Below, piece by piece: positions 2,170 through 34,597 of a stretch of DNA of 34,597 bases. Both the position numbers and the translations under genes were made by a program. The notes below the pieces were generated by a model that was not told the DNA's origin, searched no databases, and was given only the letters and a program-made list of their open reading frames with translations. The stretch spans positions 1 through 34,597 of IMG/VR virus record IMGVR_UViG_3300048836_001247, one strand, 5' to 3'. How positions within the stretch are numbered: the first letter of the stretch is position 1; every line of letters starts with the position of its first letter. Source of the DNA: a virus.

Positions 2170-2823
2170 TTACGCAGCCCTGATGAACAGCGCCGAGCCG
2201 CCGAAACGGCGGTTCACGTCCTTCCGCTGAATGGCATCCCACTCACCTTGCAGTAGGCCGGTGTACCGCTCAATACCGCGATCGTCTTTTGTCCAGATCG
2301 CCGCGTTGCGTAGGCACGCATACAGGTACAAGTTGGGGTGCGCGTTAATCAACCAGTTCGTCAGGTTCAACGCCGACAACGCGGGAATCTTCGCCCAATA
2401 GTGCAGCGTGATCGGCACTTCGCCCGACTGGAACGGCGCAACGTCGTCGCCGAATCCGTCTACGTCGGGATCATCCGCGCCGAGGTTCGGCAACAGTTCG
2501 ATATGCAAGCCCCGAAGCGTGTACGCCTTCGAGTCACCCGAAGGCGACGCCCTGCGCCACTCCGAGATAAATTCCGGCGTGGCATAGGTGAGATTGCTGA
2601 TTGTGTCGCCCTCGAACTCGACCGCGCGCAGTTCGAGAAAGTCGTCCGGCAGAGCCGTATAGCGCGTGTTGCAGACAAGCTCGGCAACCGTCTCCTGATC
2701 GACCGTGCGAAGGCGCGTATTGAACTCGGCTTCGGCCAGAGCAATGAACGTGTCGGCTTGCGCGGACACGTCCGAGCGGTGCGCCCAAGACGTGATCGCG
2801 GCTTTCAGTTCGGTGTAATTCAT
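2170..2823 (-). CDS. Head-tail adaptor-like protein
   Basis: A 217-residue protein whose ATG overlaps the stop of the upstream gene (ATGA). The N-terminus (MNYTELKAAITSWAHR, then DTFIALAEAEFNTRLRT and LPDDFLELRAVEF) has the helical layout of phage adaptor proteins that sit under the portal in podoviruses. The next gene is the predicted DNA-stabilisation protein, as expected for an adaptor-plug pair. It likely connects the portal ring to the tail. Assignment rests on the N-terminal pattern and gene order. Confidence 0.65.
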   Translation of the reverse strand: MNYTELKAAITSWAHRSDVSAQADTFIALAEAEFNTRLRTVDQETVAELVCNTRYTALPDDFLELRAVEFEGDTISNLTYATPEFISEWRRASPSGDSKAYTLRGLHIELLPNLGADDPDVDGFGDDVAPFQSGEVPITLHYWAKIPALSALNLTNWLINAHPNLYLYACLRNAAIWTKDDRGIERYTGLLQGEWDAIQRKDVNRRFGGSALFIRAA

Positions 2824-3148: not shown

Positions 3149-4774
3149 TCAGTCCAGATCGACCGCGACGTTAGAACGATCCGAGCCAACCAACGTCACC
3201 GTCGCGCGTATCTTGTGATTCGCCACGGCGGCGAGGAACTTCTCGCTATTCGTGTCGGCGCCTTCCGTCTGCCCGCCGAGGATGGAGGCAATAAACCGAA
3301 GGGCTTGGCGCGGCGTCATGCCTGTTTCGATCCCGTCTGTCAGGTCGAGCAACGCTGTCGCCATGTTTGCCGGTGCGTTGCTCGATACCGTCGTGTCCAA
3401 ATTCGACAGGCCGAGGCTCGATGCCGACATCGGATCGAACGCGACCACCTGAAACGGATACATGCGCGCGTAGCAGGTGGCCTGCGCCACCCGAACGTAA
3501 CCGGCCCCGAGCGTTCCAACCTCATCGGTGGTCAGCACATACTTGTAGCAACCGCCGCCCAGGTGCGTCGCCGTGCCGTCGGAGTTCGCTTCGGCACCTC
3601 CGGCCTTGGAGATCTTGAGGTCCGACGTCGCCAGCGGGGCGGTATAAGCCGTGCCGTCCGAGGTCTTCGTGAGCTGCACGTAGACGGTGCGACGCGCTGC
3701 GGTCGTTTCGTTTGTCTTGATGAGCATCGCGTGGCCCTCTGTTCCGATGAGATCGTGGTCGTAGCCGGTCTGGCTGGAATCCGGCGCATCGCCGGCGATG
3801 GCGCCGAAGTGTTGTCGCGACGATTCGTCGTCGGTCGTGGCGAAGCGCGTGACCGCCGCGATGGGCACGCCGGTCCACGGCGGCGCGGGCTCCGGTTCCG
3901 GTTCCGGTACGCCACCCGCTTCGCGCATGAGCGCGAGCATTTCGTTCTGGTTGAGCGTCGGCGTGCCCGCCGCAGCGCGGATGAGTCGGAACCCTTTCGT
4001 CCACATCGTTCTGCTGGTGGAACCGGAGGGCCACGTCGCGTCCCAGTAATACAATCCGTGCTTCGCGAAGTTCGAGCGAGCAGTAGTGGCCGAGTCGTAA
4101 CCGATGCGGCCGGTGTAGTCGATGATCTGGTTGAGAGCCCCGCTTCCCTGCGCGTGCCACAGACGAAGAAAATTCGCAGGGTTGTCCGCGCCGAGACGAA
4201 AATTGATTACGAAGTAGTGCCAGACGTTCCGGGTTGCAGCGATAGAAACATCGCGGGCAACGGTGTAGTCGTTCTGGTTTGATGGATAGCCGGCGTTATA
4301 GCGAACGACCGCCCGGAAATTCCCCGACCCGCACAGCATGTAGAACGGAGAGACTGCAACGGGATTCGGTTGCGGATACGGAACGTGGAACTCGAAGATG
4401 TTGATCAGCGGGTCCGGCGCGGCCCAGTCGTCCGCGAGTCGCACAGCGACCGCTAGCCAATACTCGGTATCCCACTCGGGGGTGTCCATCGTATTGCTGA
4501 CCTCGGACCGCCACGTACCCGGCAGATATGCGCTTCCAACTGCGCGGTCCTTGTGGATCTGCAACCGATAGACGTACTGCCCAGAGCCTTCGGGGTCCAG
4601 CACCCGCTCGAACGTCTGGTTAACGCCGTCGTTGACCGGTAGAACGCCTGGGTCCGTCCAGTTCGCCCACACCATGTCGGACACCTGACGATTGCCGCGA
4701 TACGCCGTGAGCGCGCCGAACGACTGCCTGGGGTCCATGTCCCAGACCCAGCGCGGATCATTGTCGGCGATCAT
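3149..4774 (-). CDS. Tail appendage with polysaccharide-lyase-like (ConA-fold) domain
   Basis: A 541-residue protein; its ATG overlaps the stop of the gene upstream. Residues of about 45-270 resemble heparin-lyase/PL20-type jelly rolls. Visible elements are WRSEV, a strand EYWLAVAVRLADDW, NIFEFH, NVWHYFVINFRLG, FLRLWHAQG and FAKHGLYYW. A Pro/Glu hinge (PEPEPEPAPPW) follows. A phage-type beta domain comes next (about 335-450, including KISKAGG and YPFQVVAFDP), then a helical tail with 'TPRQALRFIASILGG'. The layout suggests a receptor-binding appendage that binds or degrades host surface polysaccharide. Catalysis is inferred from fold-like motifs; a non-enzymatic lectin is possible. Confidence 0.65.
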   Translation of the reverse strand: MIADNDPRWVWDMDPRQSFGALTAYRGNRQVSDMVWANWTDPGVLPVNDGVNQTFERVLDPEGSGQYVYRLQIHKDRAVGSAYLPGTWRSEVSNTMDTPEWDTEYWLAVAVRLADDWAAPDPLINIFEFHVPYPQPNPVAVSPFYMLCGSGNFRAVVRYNAGYPSNQNDYTVARDVSIAATRNVWHYFVINFRLGADNPANFLRLWHAQGSGALNQIIDYTGRIGYDSATTARSNFAKHGLYYWDATWPSGSTSRTMWTKGFRLIRAAAGTPTLNQNEMLALMREAGGVPEPEPEPAPPWTGVPIAAVTRFATTDDESSRQHFGAIAGDAPDSSQTGYDHDLIGTEGHAMLIKTNETTAARRTVYVQLTKTSDGTAYTAPLATSDLKISKAGGAEANSDGTATHLGGGCYKYVLTTDEVGTLGAGYVRVAQATCYARMYPFQVVAFDPMSASSLGLSNLDTTVSSNAPANMATALLDLTDGIETGMTPRQALRFIASILGGQTEGADTNSEKFLAAVANHKIRATVTLVGSDRSNVAVDLD

Positions 4775-5718
4775 ACGGACTCCACCGAGCCGAGCGAGAA
4801 AAACGAGTACTTGGTGCTGTTATAAATCATTGCAACAACACTATCCGAGCCGGAGACATCAGGTGGCAAACCGGAGGTGATCTCCAGACGCCCCGGTGTT
4901 GCGTGACCGGCTAGCCCCTCGTAAACCTCCGGGAAGGTCGTTTTATAGTCCCCGTTGCGCCACACAAGCGCCGTGATGCCGGTGTCGGCGTCGGTCAGGT
5001 CGTCGGGATCGAAATTCGGGAATACGTACTTGTAGTCGCCGACCTCGGCGGCTTTCACGACGAGCACGAAGCCGGTCGTGGAATACCCCGACGCTGACGT
5101 ACTGCCGGCGGTGACCGTTTCGGATGCGAGACTCGTGACCTTCTTGTCGCCGATGACGACGCCGGTGACCCCGCCGGTGCCGTTCGAGTTCTTGAGGATC
5201 TGGTTCCAGCCGTCCGTAATGATGCCTTGGTTCCAGTTGGCCCACACCCCCCAGCATGCAACCAAGATATTGTCGGTCTGATCGAGGACGCCCGTCGTTA
5301 TGGGTACCGTCAGCGTGCCGGATGGAGACGTTCTGGTTGCAACAAGGGAAACCGCAGCGGATGATTTCGCGCCGCTGATCTCGATCGCGGCCCACGCGAT
5401 GCGTCGGCTGTTGGCGTGGCTCGTGAACGTGGCGGTGATCGTCGTGTCACCGGCGGCCACGTTGTGCGCCACGGCCGCGAACAGGATCCCGCCAGGGCCG
5501 TCCGCGTCCTGGTTGTTCTCGATCACCGCCCAGGTATTCGACTGGTCGTCGGCCACCGACAGCAGCTCGGACGTGATGCCAGTAGTGATGTAGTACGAAC
5601 CGACGACGATGAGCGTCGATCCGGCCTTGACGCCGGTCAGCGTGAGATCACTGGTCGCGCCGGCTGGCGTTGCCAGGCCGGTGACTGCCTGCTCTCGCTT
5701 GATGTCTGCGTATGCCAT
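4771..5718 (-). CDS. Beta-rich virion appendage or decoration protein
   Basis: A 315-residue protein. The ATG at 5718 is chosen because it has an AGGGA Shine-Dalgarno and follows the glycosyltransferase stop by two bases; a longer in-frame extension would read back through that gene. The sequence is Gly/Thr/Ser-rich with alternating strands (GSTLIVVGSYYITTG, TTITATFTSHANSRRIAWAAIEI, STTGFVLVVKAAEVG). The same sandwich style occurs in the middle of the 765-residue appendage gene at 11410-13707. It lies between the glycan cassette and the lyase-like appendage, so it may be an appendage subunit and a possible glycosylation target. That last point is inference. Confidence 0.6.
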   Translation of the reverse strand: MAYADIKREQAVTGLATPAGATSDLTLTGVKAGSTLIVVGSYYITTGITSELLSVADDQSNTWAVIENNQDADGPGGILFAAVAHNVAAGDTTITATFTSHANSRRIAWAAIEISGAKSSAAVSLVATRTSPSGTLTVPITTGVLDQTDNILVACWGVWANWNQGIITDGWNQILKNSNGTGGVTGVVIGDKKVTSLASETVTAGSTSASGYSTTGFVLVVKAAEVGDYKYVFPNFDPDDLTDADTGITALVWRNGDYKTTFPEVYEGLAGHATPGRLEITSGLPPDVSGSDSVVAMIYNSTKYSFFSLGSVESV

Positions 5719-5720
5719 GC

Positions 5721-6299
5721 TTATCCCTGAATCACCGGAACCCACGGAGCGAGAACGTGCCAGGGCCTCGGTTTGCCGTGAAAGCACACAACCTGCGTGC
5801 CCTCTGGCACGCCGTCTTGGCAATGCGCCTTGAACGAAACGACCCTCGCAACGTCCTGCCACTTCTGGCAGTCGCCGAGGTGTTGCTGCAAGAAAGCCTG
5901 ATCGCCTTCAACCGAATGCCGGCGCATGTGCAGGCTCGGTTGCCGCATGAAATCCTCGAACACCCGCGCCTTGTCTTCCTGCGCGATGTACATCAGCCCC
6001 GAACCCATCGTCTCGGGGTAGTAGAAGTCCCGCAGCACCGTCGTCTTATCGACCTTCGGCACGTCGAACACGACCGTATCGAGGTCGAAGTACATGAGGT
6101 CGCCGTCGAAGGCGTCGCTGCACAACTCGATCTTCGACCACCAACCCGGGAACCCGTAGCGCATCGGCACCGTCTCGACGCCTTGCACGGGCACGTCCGA
6201 CAGGCACACGAGGTCGGGAACCTGCTTTGCCAGCCACCGAACATGCTCGGGGCCGTAGTCACCGCCGCTGCGCAGTACGCAGACGTTCACTGAAGGCAT
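5721..6299 (-). CDS. Glycosyltransferase, GT-A-like
   Basis: A 192-residue protein. Motifs match small GT-A enzymes common in phages: VNVCVLRSGGDYGPEHV at the N-terminus, LVCLSDV, then GWWSKIELC. These are followed by the metal/nucleotide-sugar site DGDLMYFDLDTVVF with a D-x-D core (DLD), and later EGDQAFLQQHL. Such enzymes transfer a sugar from a nucleotide-sugar donor in the cytoplasm. The start overlaps the pyruvyl-transferase gene by 41 bases, so the two are translated together. It is the last gene of a four-gene glycan cassette within the late operon. Substrate is unknown: a virion protein or host envelope glycan. Confidence 0.75.
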   Translation of the reverse strand: MPSVNVCVLRSGGDYGPEHVRWLAKQVPDLVCLSDVPVQGVETVPMRYGFPGWWSKIELCSDAFDGDLMYFDLDTVVFDVPKVDKTTVLRDFYYPETMGSGLMYIAQEDKARVFEDFMRQPSLHMRRHSVEGDQAFLQQHLGDCQKWQDVARVVSFKAHCQDGVPEGTQVVCFHGKPRPWHVLAPWVPVIQG

Positions 6300-6981
6300 T
6301 CAGTACGCTCGCAATGTTGTCGACACGAACCGGCAGCGTGAAATCCGGTTCCTCTACCGTTGATAGCGGCATCTCGGCCAAACCGACCGAGCGCGCGTGA
6401 TCGTGAAACTTGATTCCGTCTCCCGCCAGTTGCGTGCTGAACCTCGCCCAAGCAGCCGGAATCCCGTATGCGTGCGCCGCGATGATCCCGTGCAGCGAAC
6501 TCGATACCACCCGCTTACAGCGCCACAGCGACCGCAGAACGTCCTGCGGGGGAGCGAGCGGGTTAATGACGACCGGATACCGCTCGCCGCAGTAACCAAG
6601 ATCGTTGTAATGCGCGAACACGCCGACCTCTCGATCAGCCTCTACCGTCCGGGGAAACACCTGCGGCAACAGCATTGCTGGATCGCCGTACACCTCCGGG
6701 CACACACCCCCGGACTTCCTCACCTTCTCGCCCGTCAGCGGCCCGCGCACCCAATGGAACTTGGCGCCGGGGTTGATTCGGTCGCTCGTGTCGATCGCAC
6801 CCGACCCGAGTACATCCATGCCATCTGTCGCAAAGCGGATGATCGAACCCGTCGAAATCGCGTCGCACTGGCCTTGATCGGCCCACCGATGCGCGATGCC
6901 GAAGTGATGGAGGATGTGCGGAGTCAGGATGTCGCCGAAGTTTCCAGGCGACGGTTCGCGCGACCACCAAACCCTCAGCAT
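6259..6981 (-). CDS. Polysaccharide pyruvyl transferase-family protein
   Basis: A 240-residue protein starting at the ATG at 6981, which overlaps the methyltransferase stop by 7 bases; a slightly longer in-frame start is possible but lacks this coupling. Family features are the N-terminal SPGNFGDILTPHILHHFG, the VLGSGAI strand, FHWVRGPLTGEKV, YGDPAMLLP and the C-terminal SSSLHGIIAAHAYGIPAAW. These enzymes add ketal-linked pyruvate to sugars in surface polysaccharides, usually from phosphoenolpyruvate. Some members are sugar transferases. Its presence in a phage late operon suggests it decorates a glycan built by the flanking transferases. Confidence 0.78.
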   Translation of the reverse strand: MLRVWWSREPSPGNFGDILTPHILHHFGIAHRWADQGQCDAISTGSIIRFATDGMDVLGSGAIDTSDRINPGAKFHWVRGPLTGEKVRKSGGVCPEVYGDPAMLLPQVFPRTVEADREVGVFAHYNDLGYCGERYPVVINPLAPPQDVLRSLWRCKRVVSSSLHGIIAAHAYGIPAAWARFSTQLAGDGIKFHDHARSVGLAEMPLSTVEEPDFTLPVRVDNIASVLNAFSERLRTAQRR

Positions 6982-7442
6982 CGCACCAGCCTGTACACCC
7001 TCTGCCCCATCCAGTCGCACGACTGATCGACACGCATTCCTGCGCTGGCGAACTCTGCTTCCAACTGTGCGAGCGGCATCAACTCATAGGCAGTGTGTGA
7101 ACAACTATCCATGTAAGACACCGCCCACACCCGGCCCACCATCTTGCGAATTACGCTGCGAGGTTTGGCGACGTGTTCCAAAATCCCCGCCATTGCGACG
7201 CCTTCGACTTCCGGCAGATCGCTCCAATCCGAATCCAGGTCCATCACAATCGCGTCATCGGACATCCTTACGCAGTCCAACGGGATATACCGCCCCGACA
7301 CGAACCTGCGCAGCGCCTGCGTCCCGGCGCCCACATCCAGCACCGAATCGCAACCCGCTAGATACCCGCCGATTATTTTCGATCGCTCGATCCATTGCGG
7401 CAGGTAACTCTCGGCCGCAGACCACCGCTTTAGATCGGGCAC
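6975..7442 (-). CDS. SAM-dependent methyltransferase, class I, compact
   Basis: A 155-residue protein overlapping the upstream TPR glycosyltransferase by 13 bases. The SAM-binding motif I is clear (DSVLDVGAGTQAL), followed by YIPLDCVRM, DAIVMDLDSDW and the motif IV-like region GVAMAGILEHVAKP. The glycine-rich loop and 'LEHV' segment match small Rossmann methyltransferases often paired with glycosyltransferases. Methylation of a sugar is the likely job in this cassette, but the acceptor is not shown by sequence. Confidence 0.7.
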   Translation of the reverse strand: MPDLKRWSAAESYLPQWIERSKIIGGYLAGCDSVLDVGAGTQALRRFVSGRYIPLDCVRMSDDAIVMDLDSDWSDLPEVEGVAMAGILEHVAKPRSVIRKMVGRVWAVSYMDSCSHTAYELMPLAQLEAEFASAGMRVDQSCDWMGQRVYRLVRC

Positions 7443-8782
7443 GAATCAACGAACCGGGATACCGCCGACTTCCAATCCTCGTCGGCACTCTTGCGGAAAA
7501 TCCGCATGTCCGCATACCACGGCATGTCATCGCGGTTGAACATCCATTGCGGCATCTCCGGCGTCAGGCACCATGTCGGCACCCCTAGCGACGCCGCCAT
7601 GTGTAAGGCAGTCGTCGGCACGCCGATTACCATGTCGAGAGCGCCGATCAGGCCCGCCGTCTCGTCGTAATCGCGCGCCATCGTCGCCCGCTCGAACCAG
7701 CGCACAGGCAAACCAGACGCGGCAATCTCTTGACTCGCGTCGTGGTACTCCAACGATACGAACGTCGCGTCAACCGACTCGATCAGCGGCCGGAAGCCTT
7801 CGATCCCCGCCTGCCTCAATCCCGACTGCGTGAGGAACGTGCCACCGGACCACGCAAGGCCGATCGTCTTGCCCTTGAAGATCGCTTTCCACTGCGCAAC
7901 CCGCTCCGGGTCGGCTTGCAGGAAAGCATCACGAGGGAACGACTTGTCGTCCCTGCGGTAGAACCGGCCAAGATCGGCCAGCGCGATATGGGCATCCGGC
8001 TTGTACTCGGCGAGCCACGGCACTGCCTCGGACTTCCGCGTGCCGTACACCTTGATATTCGGGAACGACCGGCGCATCAGCCCTTCCAACCGTGCGTCGC
8101 AGTCGTACACGACCGTCCCGCAGTCCTTCGCCGCGTCCAACAGCATCCGCGAGTAACAAATCTCGTCGCCCAATCCTTGCTCGCCCGTGACTACCAGGCA
8201 GTCGACCGGCTTGCCGTCCCACTCGGGCTCATCGCCATAGGCCACGGGCTGGCGGAACTTCCCGCCCAAAGCCCGGTGATACCCATCCCACCCCCGGCCC
8301 CAATCGCCCTTAGCGAGCGACGCAAAGCCGACGTTGATCCATCCCGCAGGCGCAGCAGGATCGAGTGCTACCGACCGTTCTGCGGCCTCTAGCGCCTCGT
8401 CGTAACGCGCCTGATTGATGAGGCTGACCGCGAGGTTCGCCCATGCGCCCGCGTATTCCGGGTTGAGCGACAGCGCCCGCCGGAACGAGGCTTCCGACTC
8501 GTGGTACAGGTGCAGTTCATCCGCCGCCCGACCGAAGTTGTTCCAGATTTCCGCGTGCTTCTGTTCGACCTGCAACGCCCTGCGGTAGAACTGGTACGCC
8601 AATACCTGCTTGTCCACTTGCAGGTAGATGTAGCCGAGCATGTGCAGAGCCAAAGCACTGTTCGGCGCCCGCTCTAGCACCTGATAGGCGACCCGCGAGG
8701 CACTCTCGTAATCCCCGGCTTCGGCAAGACGCCGAGCATCGACGAGGATCGCGCCCTGCTCTGCAATGGGCATTTCCCTCAT
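7430..8782 (-). CDS. TPR-repeat glycosyltransferase (GT9/GT41-like C-terminal domain)
   Basis: A 450-residue fusion. Residues of about 10-155 are tetratricopeptide repeats (ALHMLGYIYLQVDKQVLAY, EIWNNFGRAADELHLYHE, AGAWANLAVSLINQARYDEA, AGWINVGFASLAKGDW). Residues of about 185-445 form a GT-B domain: VTGEQGLGDEICYSRML, then TIGLAWSGG, IGVPTTALHMAASLGVPTW and PWYADMRIFR. Proteins of this shape transfer sugars to proteins or polysaccharides, with the TPRs choosing the partner. It is first in the glycan cassette and overlaps the stop of the small gene before it by four bases. A virion protein is a plausible substrate. Confidence 0.8.
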   Translation of the reverse strand: MREMPIAEQGAILVDARRLAEAGDYESASRVAYQVLERAPNSALALHMLGYIYLQVDKQVLAYQFYRRALQVEQKHAEIWNNFGRAADELHLYHESEASFRRALSLNPEYAGAWANLAVSLINQARYDEALEAAERSVALDPAAPAGWINVGFASLAKGDWGRGWDGYHRALGGKFRQPVAYGDEPEWDGKPVDCLVVTGEQGLGDEICYSRMLLDAAKDCGTVVYDCDARLEGLMRRSFPNIKVYGTRKSEAVPWLAEYKPDAHIALADLGRFYRRDDKSFPRDAFLQADPERVAQWKAIFKGKTIGLAWSGGTFLTQSGLRQAGIEGFRPLIESVDATFVSLEYHDASQEIAASGLPVRWFERATMARDYDETAGLIGALDMVIGVPTTALHMAASLGVPTWCLTPEMPQWMFNRDDMPWYADMRIFRKSADEDWKSAVSRFVDSCPI

Positions 8783-9114
8783 CGGTGCATCTTGTCCGTG
8801 GTCTTGGTGTACGGGTATTGCTCGTTGATCGCCTTAAGCAAGGCTTTCGTATGCCCCGGATTGAAGATGTCGATGCCCTTGTTACGAAGCTCGACCTGCA
8901 CAATCGGCGGGATCTGCGCGTAGCGCCAGAACGAATTCTTGATGCCCTGCCGGCTGATTTCCGGGTCGTTGCGCACCCGCTCGGTATGGTCGAGAAACCG
9001 CTTTAGATCGGCCTCTTTCTGCTCCGAGTACACCGTCACCTCGTCGGCTACCGGGTCGTAATTGAACCACTCGGTAAGCCCGGTGAACGGGTCTTTGTCT
9101 AGAATTGTTTTCAA
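8779..9114 (-). CDS. Conserved-type phage protein of unknown function downstream of capsid
   Basis: A 111-residue protein. No ATG is available near its N-terminus; the best start is the TTG at 9114, immediately after a strong hairpin terminator and without a good Shine-Dalgarno. The sequence is charged and helical (EQKEADLKRFLDHTERVRND), then NSFWRYAQIPPIVQVELRNKG and FNPGHTKALLKAINEQYPY. Proteins of this style are often found after the capsid gene in short-tailed phages. No function is recognised. The terminator and TTG start suggest low expression relative to capsid. Confidence 0.6.
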   Translation of the reverse strand: MKTILDKDPFTGLTEWFNYDPVADEVTVYSEQKEADLKRFLDHTERVRNDPEISRQGIKNSFWRYAQIPPIVQVELRNKGIDIFNPGHTKALLKAINEQYPYTKTTDKMHR

Positions 9115-9163: not shown

Positions 9164-10135
9164 TTAGCCGCCCGTGTTGCACACCTTCGCGTGCGCAAGC
9201 GGGTTCTGCACGACCAGCGTCGCTTCGCACAGAATCGCCTTCTCGGTGCCGTCACGCGCGGCCGGGATGTCCTTCGTCTGGAACCCACGAAGGAACGCAA
9301 CCCCGACGTACTCGGGATCGATACACAGCACCGCTTCGTCCCGCATGTAGCGGTTCATGACGGCTTTGTGGACCCCGTAGTCCGACACGTAGATGTCGGC
9401 CGCGCTGATGATGTTCGCCTCGGTCGCGCCCCGAACGTCGTTGAAGCGCGTGGCGATGCCCGTGAACCCGGAGAACTTCTCCTTGTTCTTGGAACTCATC
9501 ATGATGACGCTCGGGTCGCCGCCATCGGTCCACGCATACCCGAGCGCGGTCTTCAGGTTGGCTTCGCCAAACGCCTTTGCCGTGACCGTCGCAGCCGGGG
9601 CCGCAACCGTGCCGCCCGAGTAGCCGACAGTCGTGCCGCCGCTCGAACCCGTCGCTTTCACGCCGTTGCCAACACCAGAGGTCGCAATCCACGACTCAAG
9701 CGAAGCCATCGTGCGGGCGGTAGCGGCACTGCCGTTTTCCGACGCTTGGTTGCGCACCAGCGCGTATTCCAGATCACGCTTGATCTCCTTCGACATGCGC
9801 GCGACTTGGCGGGCCATCTCCGACTTACGACCCACTTTGTCGACCGCCTCGAAGGTGCCCGACACGCTCGCCGTCTTGACGAGGATCTGCGTGTAGTTAC
9901 CGAGAGTCGTCGGCTGTGCGCGCGCCGTGATCGAATAATCGCCGCCTTCCAGTGCGGCATTCGCCCCCGGAGGGGTCAGCGCGTCATACGTCCATTGATG
10001 CAGCGTGTTCTTCGCTTTCAGCCGCTTCGCCATCGTGAGAAGCGGCGTGTCGGTCGGGCTGATGTCATAGATGACATCGTGGAAGTCCTCGCGGATCTTG
10101 TTACCCGTGTAGCTGTGATTTTTGGCAATAGCCAT
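9164..10135 (-). CDS. Major capsid protein (DUF5309/SU10-type)
   Basis: A 323-residue protein with a strong Shine-Dalgarno (AAGGAG, 6 bases before the ATG). The N-terminus MAIAKNHSYTGNKIREDFHD with ISPTDTPLLTMAKR, the segment TASVSGTFEAVDKVGRKSEM, the ELEYALVRNQ-like helix (KRDLEYALVRNQ) and FNDVRGATEANIISAADIYVSDYG match the SU10-type capsid family (HK97 fold). It directly follows a scaffold gene and is followed by a terminator, both typical of a highly expressed capsid gene. No protease gene is seen nearby, and the protein has no obvious long N-terminal delta domain. Confidence 0.88.
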   Translation of the reverse strand: MAIAKNHSYTGNKIREDFHDVIYDISPTDTPLLTMAKRLKAKNTLHQWTYDALTPPGANAALEGGDYSITARAQPTTLGNYTQILVKTASVSGTFEAVDKVGRKSEMARQVARMSKEIKRDLEYALVRNQASENGSAATARTMASLESWIATSGVGNGVKATGSSGGTTVGYSGGTVAAPAATVTAKAFGEANLKTALGYAWTDGGDPSVIMMSSKNKEKFSGFTGIATRFNDVRGATEANIISAADIYVSDYGVHKAVMNRYMRDEAVLCIDPEYVGVAFLRGFQTKDIPAARDGTEKAILCEATLVVQNPLAHAKVCNTGG

Positions 10136-11413: not shown

Positions 11414-13707
11414 GCGGCTAGCAACAGCATCAGTGAATCTTCCTCATCCTGTAGCCGCTCCAATACCCTGAAAGCGACCGTTTCTAGTGCCTGCATGAGC
11501 CATGCGTTATCCGGCTCTATGCGCGCCTTGATCTCCTGCACGGCCTGCCGTACCTCGGCGACCGTCTTGACCGGCTGTGGCGCCTTTCTGGCCCGTTTGC
11601 GGCGCGGTTTCGGTCCTTCGATAACCTCTGCCGTAGTCGGCGGCGCACGGTTGAACAACTCCGCCTCTAGCAGCGCCGGTACATCGCGCTCCAGGACGTT
11701 GTAAAGCCGCTCGCCGAGGATTACGCGGCGATACCTCGGACGGCCCGCTGGCTTGGGCGCGACAACCGCTACTACCGGAGTTGCGCTTGCAAATGCCGCT
11801 GTGTCCTGCCCGGACTCCGTTGCGGCCAGCGCGCCCGTGACCAGCACGAGCCCGGCAAACGCTGCCGAGTCGTTCGCCGCCTCGGTCGCGGCCAGCGAAC
11901 CCGATACCAGTACAACACCGGCAATCGAAGCCGTGTCGCTGCCGGATTCCGTCGCGGCCAGCGAACCCGTCGCAATGACCGCAAGGCTTCCCTCTATCGC
12001 AGCCGTGTCACTACCGGACTCGGTAGCGGCCAGAGCACCGGAGATATACACATCACCGGCAAGTGCCGCTGTGTCAGCCCCGCTTTCCGTTGCGGCCAGC
12101 GTCCCGCTTACCGGAACGTCGCCCGCTATCGCCGCTGTGTCGCTGCCGCTTTCAGTCGCGGCTAGTGCGCCCTCGACCAGTACCGTCCCGGCAATCGAAG
12201 CCGTGTCGGCCCCGGATTCCGTCGCCGCTAGCGATCCGGTCGAAACCTGTTGGGCCGTGCCCTGGATCGCCGCAACGTCGGCCCCTGACTCCGTAGCCGC
12301 AAACGTGCCGGAGATCAGCACATCCCCGGCTAGCGCAGCCGTATCACCGCCGCTTTCCGTCGCGGCTAGAGAACCGTCAATCAGTACGTCGCCAGCGAAT
12401 GCTGCGGTGTCAACACCGCTTTCGGTGACCGCGAACGATCCCGTGACCGGACCGGCGCCGCCAGCAGGCGGGATCGCAAACGTCTGTGCGCGCCATTCCT
12501 CCGAGGCACTCAGCGCGAACGCCGACGGATCGTAGCTCGATGCTTCGAGCCAGCGATACGCGACACCAGTCATGCACGATGACGTGCCCGTCGCGCTCTT
12601 GATCTGCGCTACCGGCGCTCCCTCCGCAGGCCACCACAGCGCGGTGTTGTCATCGTCGTCTGCGGCGTAATGCGTGATCCAGAGATACTTGCCCGACGTG
12701 CCCGGATTGCAGTTCGGCCCGTTCGGCGCGTTGCTCGATCCCGTCGCGGCGGTGCCCTTGATGATGTCCGTAGCGACGTTCGTGACGCCGTGATTGACGA
12801 TGCGCGAGACGACGACCGCAATGTCCTGCGCTTCGCCCGTGATCGTCAGTGCATCCGATCCGGTAGCGATGCGCGCCCATGTCGCGCCCTGCACCGCAGA
12901 CCCATTCGCGCCGTCGTCGATGCTCGTCCAATTCGCACTCCACGACACGCTGCTGTCGTTGGCCGCTTGCGCGAGCAGCAGGTCGCCTGCTTCGATGCCC
13001 GAGGGCATGTTGCACGACAGCCCGCCAGAGCTTGTGGTGCCTGCCGTCGTCGCACTACTGGCTACACGCGGACCTTCCCACACCTCTGCGACATTTGCGG
13101 GGCCGGCGACGGTCGTGGGCGTCTGATTGATCGCGGTCCACGACCCGGCAATCTCGTCGGACAGATCGGTGTGTGCGGTGAACTTCGTGTAGGACACGAG
13201 GTTCGCGGTGCGCACCGGAGCGCGCTGCTGGCTTTCGAGCGCCAATTCCTCCGGGGTGAGCGCTGCGGCCCAACACTTATCGTCAGCCACCGCACGACCC
13301 GCAGCATTCCCCTCACCGTCGTACCCCAGGAGAGTCTCGACTTCGATCGTCAGCGCATCGGCCGTATTGCGCGAAATCAGCAGGGCTACGCCGTTGTCCA
13401 ACCGATAGAGCGCCCGATCGTTGCCGCTGCGCGTAAGAGCGAACTGATGCCACGTGTCATCGGACCAGACACTCGTCGCGGAATCGGTACTGCCCGAGTT
13501 TGTTAGGAGCCGCACGAAGTTGGGCTCTCTCACCTCTGGATTGTCGTACTGCGTGGCCGCCTCGTTCTCCAGGCTCCACATCGTCGAACCCTTATCGTCG
13601 TCGTCGAACTTGAACCAGGCAACGCGCGTATAGGGCGCACCCGAAATCTCCGCAGGGCGTGTGAGATACCCCGTGTTTGATGATGCGTCAGCTAGATAGA
13701 CGGCCAT
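11410..13707 (-). CDS. Large virion appendage: LamG-like domain plus ten 22-24-residue repeats
   Basis: A 765-residue protein with four parts. Residues of about 1-190 form a LamG/ConA-like lectin domain (TRVAWFKFDDDD, DDTWHQFALTRSGNDRALY, CWAAALTPEELALESQQ). Residues of about 215-415 are a beta sandwich (IEAGDLLLAQAAND, AYRWLEASSYDP). Residues 423-646 are ten tandem repeats of the form GxLAATESGxDTAAIAGDV, 22 residues each except two of 24. The C-terminus is basic (PKPRRKRARKAP) and then helical. It probably forms a fibre or head/tail appendage with a glycan-binding tip. It lies between the decoration-like gene and the scaffold. The start follows a TAG directly, so translation coupling is likely. 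Confidence 0.72.
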   Translation of the reverse strand: MAVYLADASSNTGYLTRPAEISGAPYTRVAWFKFDDDDKGSTMWSLENEAATQYDNPEVREPNFVRLLTNSGSTDSATSVWSDDTWHQFALTRSGNDRALYRLDNGVALLISRNTADALTIEVETLLGYDGEGNAAGRAVADDKCWAAALTPEELALESQQRAPVRTANLVSYTKFTAHTDLSDEIAGSWTAINQTPTTVAGPANVAEVWEGPRVASSATTAGTTSSGGLSCNMPSGIEAGDLLLAQAANDSSVSWSANWTSIDDGANGSAVQGATWARIATGSDALTITGEAQDIAVVVSRIVNHGVTNVATDIIKGTAATGSSNAPNGPNCNPGTSGKYLWITHYAADDDDNTALWWPAEGAPVAQIKSATGTSSCMTGVAYRWLEASSYDPSAFALSASEEWRAQTFAIPPAGGAGPVTGSFAVTESGVDTAAFAGDVLIDGSLAATESGGDTAALAGDVLISGTFAATESGADVAAIQGTAQQVSTGSLAATESGADTASIAGTVLVEGALAATESGSDTAAIAGDVPVSGTLAATESGADTAALAGDVYISGALAATESGSDTAAIEGSLAVIATGSLAATESGSDTASIAGVVLVSGSLAATEAANDSAAFAGLVLVTGALAATESGQDTAAFASATPVVAVVAPKPAGRPRYRRVILGERLYNVLERDVPALLEAELFNRAPPTTAEVIEGPKPRRKRARKAPQPVKTVAEVRQAVQEIKARIEPDNAWLMQALETVAFRVLERLQDEEDSLMLLLAA
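11770..12441 (-). repeat. Ten in-frame tandem coding repeats (66-bp unit)
   Basis: The 672 bases encode ten repeats of 22 residues (two carry a 2-residue insertion). They are conserved at protein level (AATESG core, DTA, G near the end) but differ at many third positions. Selection on the protein, not very recent duplication, therefore keeps them alike. A repeat number change would alter the length of the appendage in 66-base steps. Confidence 0.9.
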
Positions 13708-19815: not shown

Positions 19816-19919
19816 CGCCGCTTCTCCATCTGCGCCAATCTGCGGTGATACCGCGCCACGGCCCGCAGGTGCTTCCGGAGACGCCAATGGGCGATGATTG
19901 CTGCATATAGCGATTTCAT
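19812..19919 (-). CDS. 35-residue basic peptide
   Basis: MKSLYAAIIAHWRLRKHLRA followed by a strongly basic helix (VARYHRRLAQMEKRR). It overlaps its neighbours by four bases on each side (ATGA twice). The hydrophobic start and Arg-rich rest could bind membrane or nucleic acid. Function unknown. Confidence 0.5.
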   Translation of the reverse strand: MKSLYAAIIAHWRLRKHLRAVARYHRRLAQMEKRR

Positions 19920-20428
19920 GCTGGCTCCACAGAGACACGAACAAGCCCTGCGATATGGTCGCGGGAGACCGGGTTATGCGTATGGAAACGAGCAGCGCCC
20001 TTTGAGTAAGCCGCCGAGGCATCATCCACGTTCGGAAATGTTCCGAGGCAGACCGTCCTTCCGTTTACACAGATGTTCGCCCTGAATTTCCCGGAAGCGG
20101 ACGCGCACACGCCCTTAACTCCAACCCGATTGTTGATGTTCGGACTGGCGCGGTTTTGCTGGTTCTGGCTATGACTCGTTGCACGAAGATTCGCAATCCG
20201 GTTGTCTAATCGATCGCCGTTGACGTGATCGATCTGGGCACCGGAGGAAACTGGGCCGTGTACATGCTCGTAGATGTAGCGATGCACGCGAATCAACCGG
20301 CCGCCGATCTTCGCAATCAGGTAGCCCTTCGCGTTCACACTACCGATTCCTCTGCGTAGCGAGCCATCCGGCATTAGCCGATCGATTTGGCCCTCGTCTG
20401 CGCGAACGATGACAGTGCTCCGGTTCAT
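19916..20428 (-). CDS. HNH homing endonuclease with AP2-like DNA-binding domain
   Basis: A 170-residue free-standing homing endonuclease. The HNH core lies near the middle: RVHRYIYEHVHG, QIDHVNGDRLDNRIANLR and ATSHSQNQQN. The C-terminal AP2-like domain follows: GVKGVCASASGKFRANICV and VCLGTFPNVDDASAAYSKGA. Its base composition looks less GC-rich than neighbouring genes. It overlaps both neighbours by ATGA, so insertion has not broken the operon. It is similar in layout to the HNH gene at 25437-25901. Confidence 0.88.
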   Translation of the reverse strand: MNRSTVIVRADEGQIDRLMPDGSLRRGIGSVNAKGYLIAKIGGRLIRVHRYIYEHVHGPVSSGAQIDHVNGDRLDNRIANLRATSHSQNQQNRASPNINNRVGVKGVCASASGKFRANICVNGRTVCLGTFPNVDDASAAYSKGAARFHTHNPVSRDHIAGLVRVSVEPA

Positions 20429-25436: not shown

Positions 25437-25901
25437 TCAGGCGGCAAGCCTGTACGGGCTGAATTCGCCATGCAGACGTCGAGAGGCCGCACGGTAGACG
25501 TCTGCGGCTCTATTGGCGTCATCGAACAGACCGAGGTGTACTACCGCGCCATCGACATAGATTTCCGCGCGCCACTTTGCCCCGGCCCGTCTGACACCGG
25601 GGAAGCCGGACGTGTTGTTCTTGTGAGGCTTTCGATTGCGCATGTTCTCGGCGTGAGAACACATGCGCAGGTTCGATCGCCTGTTGTCCAGTCGGTCGCC
25701 ATTTACATGATCGACAACTCGGCCACGTTCGGCGCCAACAATCATCCTGTGCAACAGAAGAAGTGGATTTCGGCCAGAGACCACGTAGCGGTAATCACCG
25801 GCTCGCTTGTTGGTGTTGGCGACCCGCCACGAATGCGCGGCCAGCAGAGGCAAATCGCACTCATCCACTTGGATCAACCCGCCGCGGATCGTGACAAACA
25901 T
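25437..25901 (-). CDS. HNH homing endonuclease with AP2-like domain (second copy)
   Basis: A 154-residue protein immediately downstream of the Cro-like gene. The HNH core is LLLHRMIVGAERGRVVDHVN with GDRLDNRRSNLRMCSHAENM, followed by the AP2-like SGFPGVRRAGAKWRAEIYV and VVHLGLFDDANRAADVYRAA. It shares the GDRLDNR core and domain order with the gene at 19916-20428, so the two are related mobile genes. It separates Cro from the rest of the leftward early genes without blocking the operon. Confidence 0.88.
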   Translation of the reverse strand: MFVTIRGGLIQVDECDLPLLAAHSWRVANTNKRAGDYRYVVSGRNPLLLLHRMIVGAERGRVVDHVNGDRLDNRRSNLRMCSHAENMRNRKPHKNNTSGFPGVRRAGAKWRAEIYVDGAVVHLGLFDDANRAADVYRAASRRLHGEFSPYRLAA

Positions 25902-30733: not shown

Positions 30734-31287
30734 TCGACTACAAAGCACTTGCCGAGCGGATCAAGAAGATCGCAGACGGATATGAAACATCGTCTATCGC
30801 TGATGGATTGCGCGGGGAGATCGCCGACCTGCGTGCCGTCGTCACGATGCTGGAAGAGAGGGCGGATCAGGAACCTGTTGCCCACATGATGCCGAGCGAC
30901 CTTGAGCGTTTCGCTGAGAGCGAGACGTTCGCGCAGGCGTTCTCGGTTGCAGTGAGCAATCCGGAAGAACGAAGCATTCCGCTCTACACGCACCCCGCGC
31001 CGCAACCGCAGCCCGTTCGGCGCTCTCTACAACAACTGTGCGATGCGCTGCCCGAAGGCGTGATGTGGGGCGACCCACTGACACCGGATGTGCTCTCGGC
31101 CGCTGTCGACGCGCTGAGTGCTGCCGTGCCGCAACCGCAGCGCGAGCCGACCGAGGCGCAGATCGAGGCGGCAACTGACGCATGGCAGGCCCACTGTGGG
31201 CTGCTTCTTCTCAGCCGCGAGGGCGCACGCGATGAAGTGCTGATCGTGCTTCGTGCCGCACTCGCGGCGAAGGAGCAGCCGAAATGA
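30730..31287 (+). CDS. Accessory protein with EPVAHM / IPLYTHPAP phage motif
   Basis: A 185-residue protein, ATGA-coupled. An N-terminal coiled coil (ALAERIKKIADGY to AVVTMLEERAD) leads into QEPVAHMMPSDLERF and SIPLYTHPAPQPQP, a recurring element in phage accessory proteins. The C-terminus is helical (IEAATDAWQAHCGLLLL). Role unknown. Confidence 0.6.
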   Translation: MIDYKALAERIKKIADGYETSSIADGLRGEIADLRAVVTMLEERADQEPVAHMMPSDLERFAESETFAQAFSVAVSNPEERSIPLYTHPAPQPQPVRRSLQQLCDALPEGVMWGDPLTPDVLSAAVDALSAAVPQPQREPTEAQIEAATDAWQAHCGLLLLSREGARDEVLIVLRAALAAKEQPK

Positions 31288-31883
31288 CCGAAGCCGAACG
31301 AGAGATTCGCGAGGCGCTGGCAGCAGGGCCGACGCGCAAACCAATTCCGAGTTGCGCAGGGTATGAAGCGGACTCCGAAGGTTATATCTGGTCTGTCGCT
31401 TCGAATTGGCGCGGCATTGGATCGCGGAGGATCAGTGCATTTGCAGACAAGGGGTATTTGCGGGTCCGCATTACAAGTGCAGGAAAGCGGCAGAAAAGGC
31501 CGGTCCATCAGCTCGTTTGCGAGGCATTCCACGGAGAGCGGCCGGATGGCAAAGAAGTTCGACACATCGACGGCAATCCATTGAACAACAAGCCGACAAA
31601 TCTAGCGTGGGGCACTCGATCCGAGAACGCCAAAGATAGACAACTGCACGGCACAGAAAAGGCCACGCAGAACGGACTGCGTGGCGCGTTATCAACTAGA
31701 GAGAAGTTCGCGCACCTCGCCCGAGTAGCAATCTGTCCTGTATGCGAGAACGAATTCAGAACGCGAGCGTGGAAGATAGCAGCGGCCGTGCGTCGCTCAA
31801 GGCTCTTAACGTGCTCAACGGGGTGCGCCCGTAGGGCGGGAGCCGCCGCATCAAACGAGAAAAGGGCCGGCCATGCCAATTGA
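31284..31883 (+). CDS. HNH endonuclease with NUMOD4-like region
   Basis: A 199-residue protein. The first 20 residues (MTEAEREIREALAAGPTRKP) resemble the start of the next gene. The region after is NUMOD4-like (GYEADSEGYIWSVASNWRGI), and the HNH is RPVHQLVCEAFHGERPDGKE with RHIDGNPLNNKPTNLAWGTR and SENAKDRQLHG. The C-terminus has CPVCENEF and a CSTGC motif, perhaps zinc-binding. Its base composition is lower in GC than its neighbours. It looks like a mobile nuclease inserted next to, and partly using, a resident gene start. Confidence 0.82.
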   Translation: MTEAEREIREALAAGPTRKPIPSCAGYEADSEGYIWSVASNWRGIGSRRISAFADKGYLRVRITSAGKRQKRPVHQLVCEAFHGERPDGKEVRHIDGNPLNNKPTNLAWGTRSENAKDRQLHGTEKATQNGLRGALSTREKFAHLARVAICPVCENEFRTRAWKIAAAVRRSRLLTCSTGCARRAGAAASNEKRAGHAN

Positions 31884-33581: not shown

Positions 33582-34597
33582 CGACGCACGCCAGCCGCAA
33601 GAAGTCGTTCGACGACGACCGGCTGCGCCTGGCGCAGATGCTGCCGATGATCCCCGAATGCGGGATCGAGGAAATCACGACCGCCTTCATGACGCGCCTG
33701 CGCGATCGGCTGCTCGAGCGCCAGGTGCGCGCCGGCAAGAATGCGAAGGGCGAGCAGCTCTATCGGCCGATCGCGCCGTCCAGCGTCAACAAGTACCTCG
33801 CGATCCTCTCGGCCATCCTGCACCACGCGCACAAGCGCGAATGGCTCGAGGCCGTGCCGCACGTGCCGATGTTCCCGCCCGGGCCGAAGCGTCGCCTGCC
33901 GATGCTCTCGGCCGGCGACGTTGCGAGGATCCTCGCCGAGCTCCCGCCGCACCTGTTGCCGATGGCGCGCTTCGCACTGGCGACCGGACAGCGTCAGTCG
34001 AATGTGCGCCTGCTGCGGTGGGAGAACGTCAACCTCGCGCGTCGCGTGGCGATCGTCTGGGCCGACGAGGCGAAGGCCGGCGACGAGATCCCGATTCCGC
34101 TGGGCGACGAAGCGATCGCGATCCTGCAGGCACAGATGGGGGCACACCCCGAGTTCGTGTTCACCTATCCGCAGCCGAAGAAGAACGGCCTGTTCGAACA
34201 CCGGCCGATCGCCGGCAAGCTCACGAACACGGCATGGGTGAAGGCGAGAAAGCGCGCCGGATTCCCGACGCTGCGCTGGCACGACTTCCGGCACATCTGG
34301 GCGACCTGGCACGCGGCCAGCGGCACGCCGGCGCAGATCCTGCAGGCGATGGGCGGCTGGAGCGACCGGCGTATGGTCGACCGCTACACGCACCTGGCCG
34401 CGCAACATCTGCTCGAGCACGCGAACGCCCTCGTGATTCCGAAGGCACAACCACGGGCACAGTCGGGAGTGAAAGCGACGCGAGAATCAGCCGTGGAAAC
34501 GTCGCAAGGTGCTGATTCTTCGGATGAAAATCTTGGGGTGGGCGATGGGATTCGAACCCACGACAACCGGAATCACAATCCGGGACTCTACCCCTGA
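33383..34597 (+). CDS. int: Tyrosine-family phage integrase
   Basis: A 404-residue tyrosine recombinase; the ATG at 33383 is preferred, since the upstream in-frame extension only shadows the HTH gene. N-terminal arm-type and core-binding regions span residues of about 1-180. The catalytic set is Arg204 (TGQRQSN), Lys231 (DEAKAGD), His300 and Arg303 (HDFRH), Trp326 (GGWSDRR) and Tyr335 (DRYTHL). The last 20 or so residues (from GVGDGIRTHDNRN) are encoded inside tRNA-His, so the real end after excision may differ. It recombines phage and host sites at the tRNA. Confidence 0.94.
   Translation: MLYKRGRVWWVKLSVAGQKPVRESARTTDRQAAQEYHDTRAAQLWREHQLGERPRVAFSSAAADWVTTHASRKKSFDDDRLRLAQMLPMIPECGIEEITTAFMTRLRDRLLERQVRAGKNAKGEQLYRPIAPSSVNKYLAILSAILHHAHKREWLEAVPHVPMFPPGPKRRLPMLSAGDVARILAELPPHLLPMARFALATGQRQSNVRLLRWENVNLARRVAIVWADEAKAGDEIPIPLGDEAIAILQAQMGAHPEFVFTYPQPKKNGLFEHRPIAGKLTNTAWVKARKRAGFPTLRWHDFRHIWATWHAASGTPAQILQAMGGWSDRRMVDRYTHLAAQHLLEHANALVIPKAQPRAQSGVKATRESAVETSQGADSSDENLGVGDGIRTHDNRNHNPGLYP
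34534..34597 (-). tRNA. tRNA-His (GTG), 5' end outside window; integration site
   Basis: On the minus strand the 3' end is CCCACCCCA with encoded CCA (34536-34534). A T-arm with TTCGAAT precedes it, then the anticodon stem CCGGA/TCCGG with loop TTGTGAT; the anticodon GTG is 34576-34574. The D-arm end (CAGGGGTAGAG) is at the window edge, so about 11 bases at the 5' end are missing. The integrase stop lies within it. The 3' half is the likely attachment core. Confidence 0.92.

Follow-up and report, generated by a model that had tools for sequence, protein, structure and literature searches.

Why would a phage keep four sugar-handling enzymes between the genes of its head and those of its tail? 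The question is raised by the virus record IMGVR_UViG_3300048836_001247 of IMG/VR, which is 34.6 kb long (34,597 nt; hereafter the window). On its minus strand, a late cluster runs from head genes through a four-gene cassette to tail and adaptor genes. The cassette encodes a glycosyltransferase composed of tetratricopeptide repeats (TPR) and a GT-B domain, here called TPR-GT, an S-adenosylmethionine (SAM)-dependent methyltransferase (MT), a polysaccharide pyruvyl transferase (PvyT), and a glycosyltransferase of the GT-A type (GT-A). These four genes are real, not a product of chance, and functionally maintained. We found that TPR-GT is a core gene of the capsid module in one podovirus lineage, co-inherited with the capsid gene, and that the cassette consists of this one constant gene and swappable accessories. 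Late, cytoplasmic glycosylation of a virion protein, most likely the capsid, by TPR-GT plus exchangeable tailoring enzymes is in our judgment the probable function. The genes on which the argument turns are the following:

9164..10135, minus strand: major capsid protein (MCP), matching SU10_MCP PF17236 (7.4e-84) and phrog_1328 major head protein (3.5e-88); proposed acceptor
8779..9114, minus strand: small head-operon protein of 111 amino acids (aa), phrog_3982, between MCP and TPR-GT
7430..8782, minus strand: TPR-GT-B, 450 aa; conserved core enzyme
6975..7442, minus strand: SAM-dependent MT, 155 aa, GTG start; accessory
6259..6981, minus strand: PvyT, 240 aa, PF04230; accessory
5721..6299, minus strand: GT-A glycosyltransferase, 192 aa, phrog_1962, DLD motif, PmgQ relative; accessory
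4771..5718, minus strand: tail appendage-type protein directly after the cassette; fast-diverging, 34% identical to its counterpart in L006, the nearest relative
2170..2823, minus strand: SU10-type adaptor, PF24175; marks the downstream edge of the slot in relatives

The initial annotation had described four genes in series on the same strand with overlapping ends, and all these open reading frames (ORFs) were recovered in place, with slight corrections of start codons. The TPR-GT gene shares its first 4 nt with the end of the 111-aa gene; MT overlaps TPR-GT, PvyT (ATG 6981) overlaps MT, and GT-A overlaps PvyT. PvyT most likely starts at this ATG, a corrected position giving 240 aa, because the alternative GTG at 7020 is located upstream of the conserved MLRVWWSREPSPGNFGD start. 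The start of the tail gene was likewise corrected to ATG 5718, 2 nt past the GT-A stop.

TPR-GT as a core gene of the capsid module

The TPR-GT protein combines an N-terminal TPR superhelix (about residues 1–175) with a GT-B domain (about 176–450). Its TPR repeats are recognized by Pfam (6e-18), and in the Pfam and PHROG profile searches the C-terminal half was matched only by PHROG 36377. When the whole TPR-GT profile was searched against PDB sequences, most matches were to TPR, and nothing informative emerged for the GT domain. The AlphaFold2 (AF2) model displays the two-domain TPR and GT-B arrangement (predicted local distance difference test [pLDDT] 94.3; predicted template modeling score 0.88), and its closest PDB structures are SPY and OGT (Foldseek E 1e-10 to 4e-13, with VIA agreeing). 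As the overall root-mean-square deviation is large, about 15 Å at an identity of about 10–22%, the likeness to SPY and OGT is one of architecture and not of close kinship. A TPR superhelix followed by a C-terminal GT-B domain is the organization of the FlmG/OGT/SPY-like TPR protein O-glycosyltransferases.

Among 32 representatives, the phage TPR-GT proteins are near-invariant at EQGxGD, RSF, D373, D383, T390, H394, and W413. Most of these motifs are common to the GT domains of 181 bacterial TPR-GT proteins, in which position 390 is T or N. The bacterial relatives (L113–L187) form chromosomal tandem arrays of up to seven genes, which occur in many proteobacterial and planctomycete genomes. They are mostly not near flagellin; a flagellin gene lies nearby in 5 of 75 loci. 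Some phage glycosyltransferases act on DNA, according to passages of PMC12619734, and the cassette might by the same token glycosylate the DNA of the phage, giving hypermodified bases, or a target of host takeover, for example RNA polymerase. We give this reading scarcely any credence: the genes are in the late operon, the TPR-GT architecture is typical of protein-acceptor enzymes, and the window proteins that were searched included none for base hypermodification.

The distribution of TPR-GT links it to the capsid gene. A search of viral contigs with a TPR-GT alignment provided the best 80 loci, to which the following counts refer; more relatives exist. Their common neighborhood comprises MCP, the small protein, TPR-GT, accessory genes, and the adaptor: MCP was identified in 67/80, the small protein in 74/80, and the adaptor in 72/80, the rest being mostly short or cut contigs. 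Wherever the extent of the contig permits checking, TPR-GT lies between MCP and adaptor. Occupying this slot across the clade, it belongs to the phage-encoded glycosyltransferases linked to virion genes. To avoid circularity, a second survey was seeded with MCP alone, not with TPR-GT, and counted metagenomic contigs with a complete MCP-to-adaptor stretch. TPR-GT was present in 20 contigs, which all belong to one clade; the 43 relatives lacking it fall outside this clade. In an MCP tree of 67 deduplicated rows, the carriers group together, and the presence of TPR-GT requires one change and no loss within the clade; this is a quick tree in which many carriers came from the TPR-GT search, and the MCP-found carriers give the same picture. 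Distances between TPR domains and between GT domains follow MCP distances (Mantel r 0.89 and 0.88, respectively; 0/2000 permutations as high), with lower values for the adaptor (0.78) and the small protein (0.71).

Relatives without TPR-GT also encode homologs of the small protein, and their slot is occupied by one GT-like gene, by small proteins, or by HNH genes, or is empty. One other clade within this MCP family has a single GT-A-like gene behind the small protein (22 copies; cluster 4, phrog_1574; L255 9750–10415 and relatives), and in a third clade two small proteins with no assigned function precede the small protein of the head operon. We considered the mutual exclusivity of three slot states (TPR-GT, one GT-like gene, or two small proteins) as evidence of functional equivalence and dropped it, the states tracking clades of the MCP tree (6 changes). 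In this slot, the wider relative Sinorhizobium phage phiM5 has genes for a GDSL/SGNH hydrolase and a protein of 91 aa, and the annotation records detection of each in the particle proteome; the slot can therefore encode particle proteins.

A slot that accepts other genes, or none, might be a hotspot for glycan genes behind capsid genes, carried as passive cargo with no action on the virion. The loss-free retention of TPR-GT, its conserved GT motifs, and a dN/dS of 0.06–0.21, indicating purifying selection, make this very improbable. Compared with L006 (7900–9249), synonymous divergence is 0.23 in the TPR domain versus 0.87 in the GT domain, and this sharp difference hints at recombination inside the gene.

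Accessory enzymes and their exchange

The enzyme families initially proposed for the four proteins are backed by Pfam and PHROG matches or by AF2 and Foldseek models. MT has no Pfam, PHROG, or NCBIfam match, and its family support comes from the model: built from only two sequences (pLDDT 76.5), it matches SAM methyltransferases with a Foldseek probability of 1.00. The Rossmann-type fold and the glycine-rich motif I (LDVGAGT) identify a class I SAM-dependent methyltransferase. PvyT matches PF04230 with 43.8 bits, for a gathering cutoff of 25.3, the best stretch covering profile positions 118–274 of 280. GT-A belongs to the glycosyltransferases of PHROG 1962 (1.4e-48) and is 35% identical to PmgQ of phage P1. 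PDB sequence searches with MT, PvyT, and GT-A gave no useful direct match.

These enzymes are exchanged between close relatives. The phage L006 is about 90% identical to the window, with 93% identity in MCP, 89% in TPR-GT, and 98% in GT-A. Where the window has MT and PvyT, it encodes two other methyltransferases, one SAM-dependent of 172 aa and one of the FkbM type. The exchange is sharply delimited:

6289..7470, no strand assigned: swapped segment; nucleotide homology to L006 ends at 7471 and restarts at 6288

Accessory content was classified in 72 complete slots. One methyltransferase was found in 24, a GT9-like with a GT-like gene in 20, FkbM with a GT-A-like gene in 8, and a methyltransferase with GT9-like and GT-like genes in 6; other sets make up the remainder. 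Methyltransferase or glycosyltransferase clusters account for 91 of the 137 ORFs downstream of TPR-GT, or 123 with the addition of a weakly identified GT-like cluster, some accessory clusters being called from motif and neighborhood only. Since two MCP-found phages, L216 and L221, carry TPR-GT with no accessory ORF called before the adaptor, this enzyme may act alone. A fixed four-gene cassette, as first proposed, was rejected: among relatives only TPR-GT is constant, and no fetched locus besides the window joins TPR-GT with PvyT and the MT encoded at 6975.

In L271, homologs of MT, PvyT, and GT-A (48, 60, and 48% identical, respectively) follow in the same order 49 nt behind an MCP gene of another family, PF20036, and no TPR-GT was seen in the 5.98-kb contig. 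L026, whose MCP is of the same type as that of L271, has an MT of the L006 type (62%) and a GT-A (47%) directly behind MCP, followed by a sialyltransferase-like gene. A relative of the latter lies with a methyltransferase gene behind MCP in L273. In L116 and L029, with capsids of a third family (PF13252), TPR-GT, methyltransferases, and glycosyltransferases lie behind MCP plus one or two small genes. A place behind a capsid gene is not the default for such enzymes, since the PvyT relatives L002–L005 are located elsewhere, with no TPR-GT match and no identified capsid gene nearby. Sialyltransferase-like genes (L026 3379–4092, L273 7548–8381, L275 3129–3791, L272 7466–7996) are repeatedly found next to genes for GT-A or methyltransferases in phages unrelated to one another, P1 (pmgO) and Citrobacter phage phiNP among them. 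We propose tentatively, at somewhat less than even confidence, that TPR-led O-glycosylation of protein is a vertically inherited core function of the capsid module in a widespread lineage of environmental podoviruses, that the outer chemistry of the resulting capsid glycan (methyl, pyruvate, extra sugars) is switched through exchange of tailoring genes, and that similar tailoring modules pass among phages whose capsids are unrelated.

The late-operon setting described at first is confirmed by terminase, portal, scaffold, and MCP genes upstream and tail and adaptor genes downstream, all on the same strand; a further virion protein is encoded at the adaptor end. Other genes of the cluster are:

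17735–16482, minus strand: terminase
16521–14377, minus strand: portal
between portal and scaffold, minus strand: 765-aa protein with no assigned function
11105–10146, minus strand: scaffold
3149..4774, minus strand: tail protein with a polysaccharide lyase domain, PF14099 (1.3e-14)

The contig is of temperate type, with an integrase (33272 onward) and Erf and exonuclease genes on the strand opposite the late cluster. Temperate phages often alter O-antigen, and bacterial exopolysaccharide commonly bears pyruvyl and methyl groups. The cassette could accordingly modify the host surface (lipopolysaccharide, capsule, or a surface protein) so as to exclude superinfecting phages or convert the serotype, its genes being parked in the late operon; the lyase domain of the tail protein also points this way. 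We find this quite unlikely. The four proteins appear soluble, none having a transmembrane-like segment (maximum KD19 1.46), and include no membrane enzyme, flippase, or polymerase. They thus differ from a gtr-type O-antigen conversion cassette, which has a membrane flippase and membrane-anchored glucosyltransferases; neither family was matched in the Pfam, PHROG, and NCBIfam searches. A sequence scan detected no promoter-like site above chance between MCP and the four genes that would serve the cassette alone. The preference of the initial annotation for the virion over the host surface is sustained by the co-inheritance of TPR-GT, kept without loss, with the capsid gene to which it is locked, and by the recurrence of similar modules behind unrelated capsid genes.

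Several observations concern the remainder of the contig. On the minus strand, positions 34533–34597 read as the 3' portion of a tRNA-His (GTG anticodon). The integrase gene extends with its 3' end into this stretch, where the contig stops, and the phage therefore probably integrates at tRNA-His. No plasmid match pointing to a host was obtained. The 765-aa protein contains four copies of a 187-nt repeat (11789–12449) and is 65% identical in L006, compared with about 90% for neighboring genes. The L006 counterpart of the lyase-domain tail protein is split into separate ORFs. Three HNH endonuclease genes (19916–20428, 25437–25901, and 31284–31883) are possibly homing.

The candidate acceptor and the proposed pathway

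In MCP, one region emerges as a candidate acceptor site:

9572..9688, minus strand: Ser/Thr/Gly-rich loop of MCP, residues 150–188; a lead only

In 32 TPR-GT phages this loop is longer, averaging 37.8 residues compared with 30.1 in the others, and holds more Ser and Thr (12.5 versus 9.3). Over the whole MCP, no Ser/Thr enrichment was observed in TPR-GT phages (0.183 vs. 0.186 and 0.199).

The same chemistry might instead be applied to a tail or appendage protein, the substrate initially proposed, the glycan masking or tuning receptor binding. In the window, the tail gene follows the cassette directly, and it is only 34% identical in L006, the relative with the swapped middle; in L022 and L023, GT-A relatives likewise have tail or neck genes nearby. 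However, the adaptor comes at once after the cassette in most TPR-GT relatives, similar enzymes lie directly behind MCP in L271, L026, and L273, and TPR-GT tracks MCP closer than the adaptor does, in a comparison of TPR-GT, the adaptor, and the small protein. A tail acceptor is therefore unlikely in our view, and the capsid is the more likely substrate, MCP being favored by linkage, co-inheritance, and, weakly, the longer Ser/Thr-rich loop.

By analogy with FlmG, the TPR superhelix would hold a virion protein before assembly, most likely MCP, encoded just upstream. The GT-B domain would add a first sugar to Ser or Thr from a host nucleotide-sugar, GT-A would extend the glycan in this phage, and MT and PvyT would cap it with a methyl ether and an acidic pyruvate ketal. 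By keeping the first enzyme and exchanging the later ones, relatives would combine a constant anchor with a variable outer coat chemistry, and the benefit might be altered adsorption, shielding, or antigenic change. We infer the enzymatic activities, the acceptor, the order of the steps, and the benefit, taking the GT-A, MT, and PvyT steps from the enzyme families.

Several points weigh against capsid glycosylation. The glycan, donor sugar, and acceptor are putative. The retention of TPR-GT is a statistic on one clade and a single evolutionary event; the loop difference likewise corresponds to one branch of the tree and one event, not to independent ones. Adjacency to MCP does not prove the acceptor, and the small protein, the adaptor, and tail proteins are possible, a tail gene being the immediate neighbor of the cassette in the window. 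Finally, phages of the wider MCP family with known particles (the LUZ24-like PaP4) lack TPR-GT.

Known systems and meaning for the lineage

The closest model is FlmG, the flagellin O-glycosyltransferase of Caulobacter, whose TPR domain binds the protein substrate and whose C-terminal GT-B domain carries out the glycosylation, a cytoplasmic reaction (PMC7591256). By description, the phage TPR-GT resembles it in being soluble, with an N-terminal TPR and a C-terminal GT-B domain. FlmG acts on the subunit before assembly of the surface structure, and we propose the same for the phage enzyme. However, FlmG is a bacterial protein of 596 aa acting on flagellin with pseudaminic acid, whereas the phage protein has 450 aa, is linked to a capsid gene, and is accompanied by swappable tailoring genes. 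OGT and SPY share the combination of TPR and GT-B, with a different domain orientation; we claim no GT41 membership.

The general idea of virion glycosylation is not new. For mycobacteriophages, reports link glycans on the major capsid and tail-tube proteins to glycosyltransferases that the phages encode (Freeman et al. 2023, as cited in passages of PMC11256854 and PMC12619734). Those are different phages, and these passages describe no TPR-GT core, capsid co-inheritance, or swapping of methyl and pyruvyl functions. PmgQ of phage P1 and HdmD of P7 are relatives of the window GT-A; PmgQ, annotated in P1 as a putative morphogenetic function, is accompanied by the sialyltransferase-like PmgO, and no TPR-GT was seen beside pmgQ. 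Effects of such genes may be subtle, as plaque formation requires neither pmgQ nor pmgO (PMC10695390). We found no literature on TPR glycosyltransferases of phages or podoviruses or on phage pyruvyl transferase cassettes, which does not prove its absence. Phage capsid glycosylation and protein glycosylation by TPR-GT enzymes are each known; no description of their combination was found in the literature searched.

Glycosylated phage capsids are otherwise known from a few mycobacteriophages. Our reading directly predicts that, in hundreds of uncultured phages, the capsid protein carries the added mass of a sugar, and it provides a compact pair of enzyme and substrate with which to study protein choice by TPR glycosyltransferases. 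If it is true, glycosylation of the capsid would be fixed in a large lineage of environmental podoviruses and performed by a virus-encoded relative of FlmG-like enzymes, and coat chemistry would be altered through the exchange of cassettes among phages with unrelated capsids.

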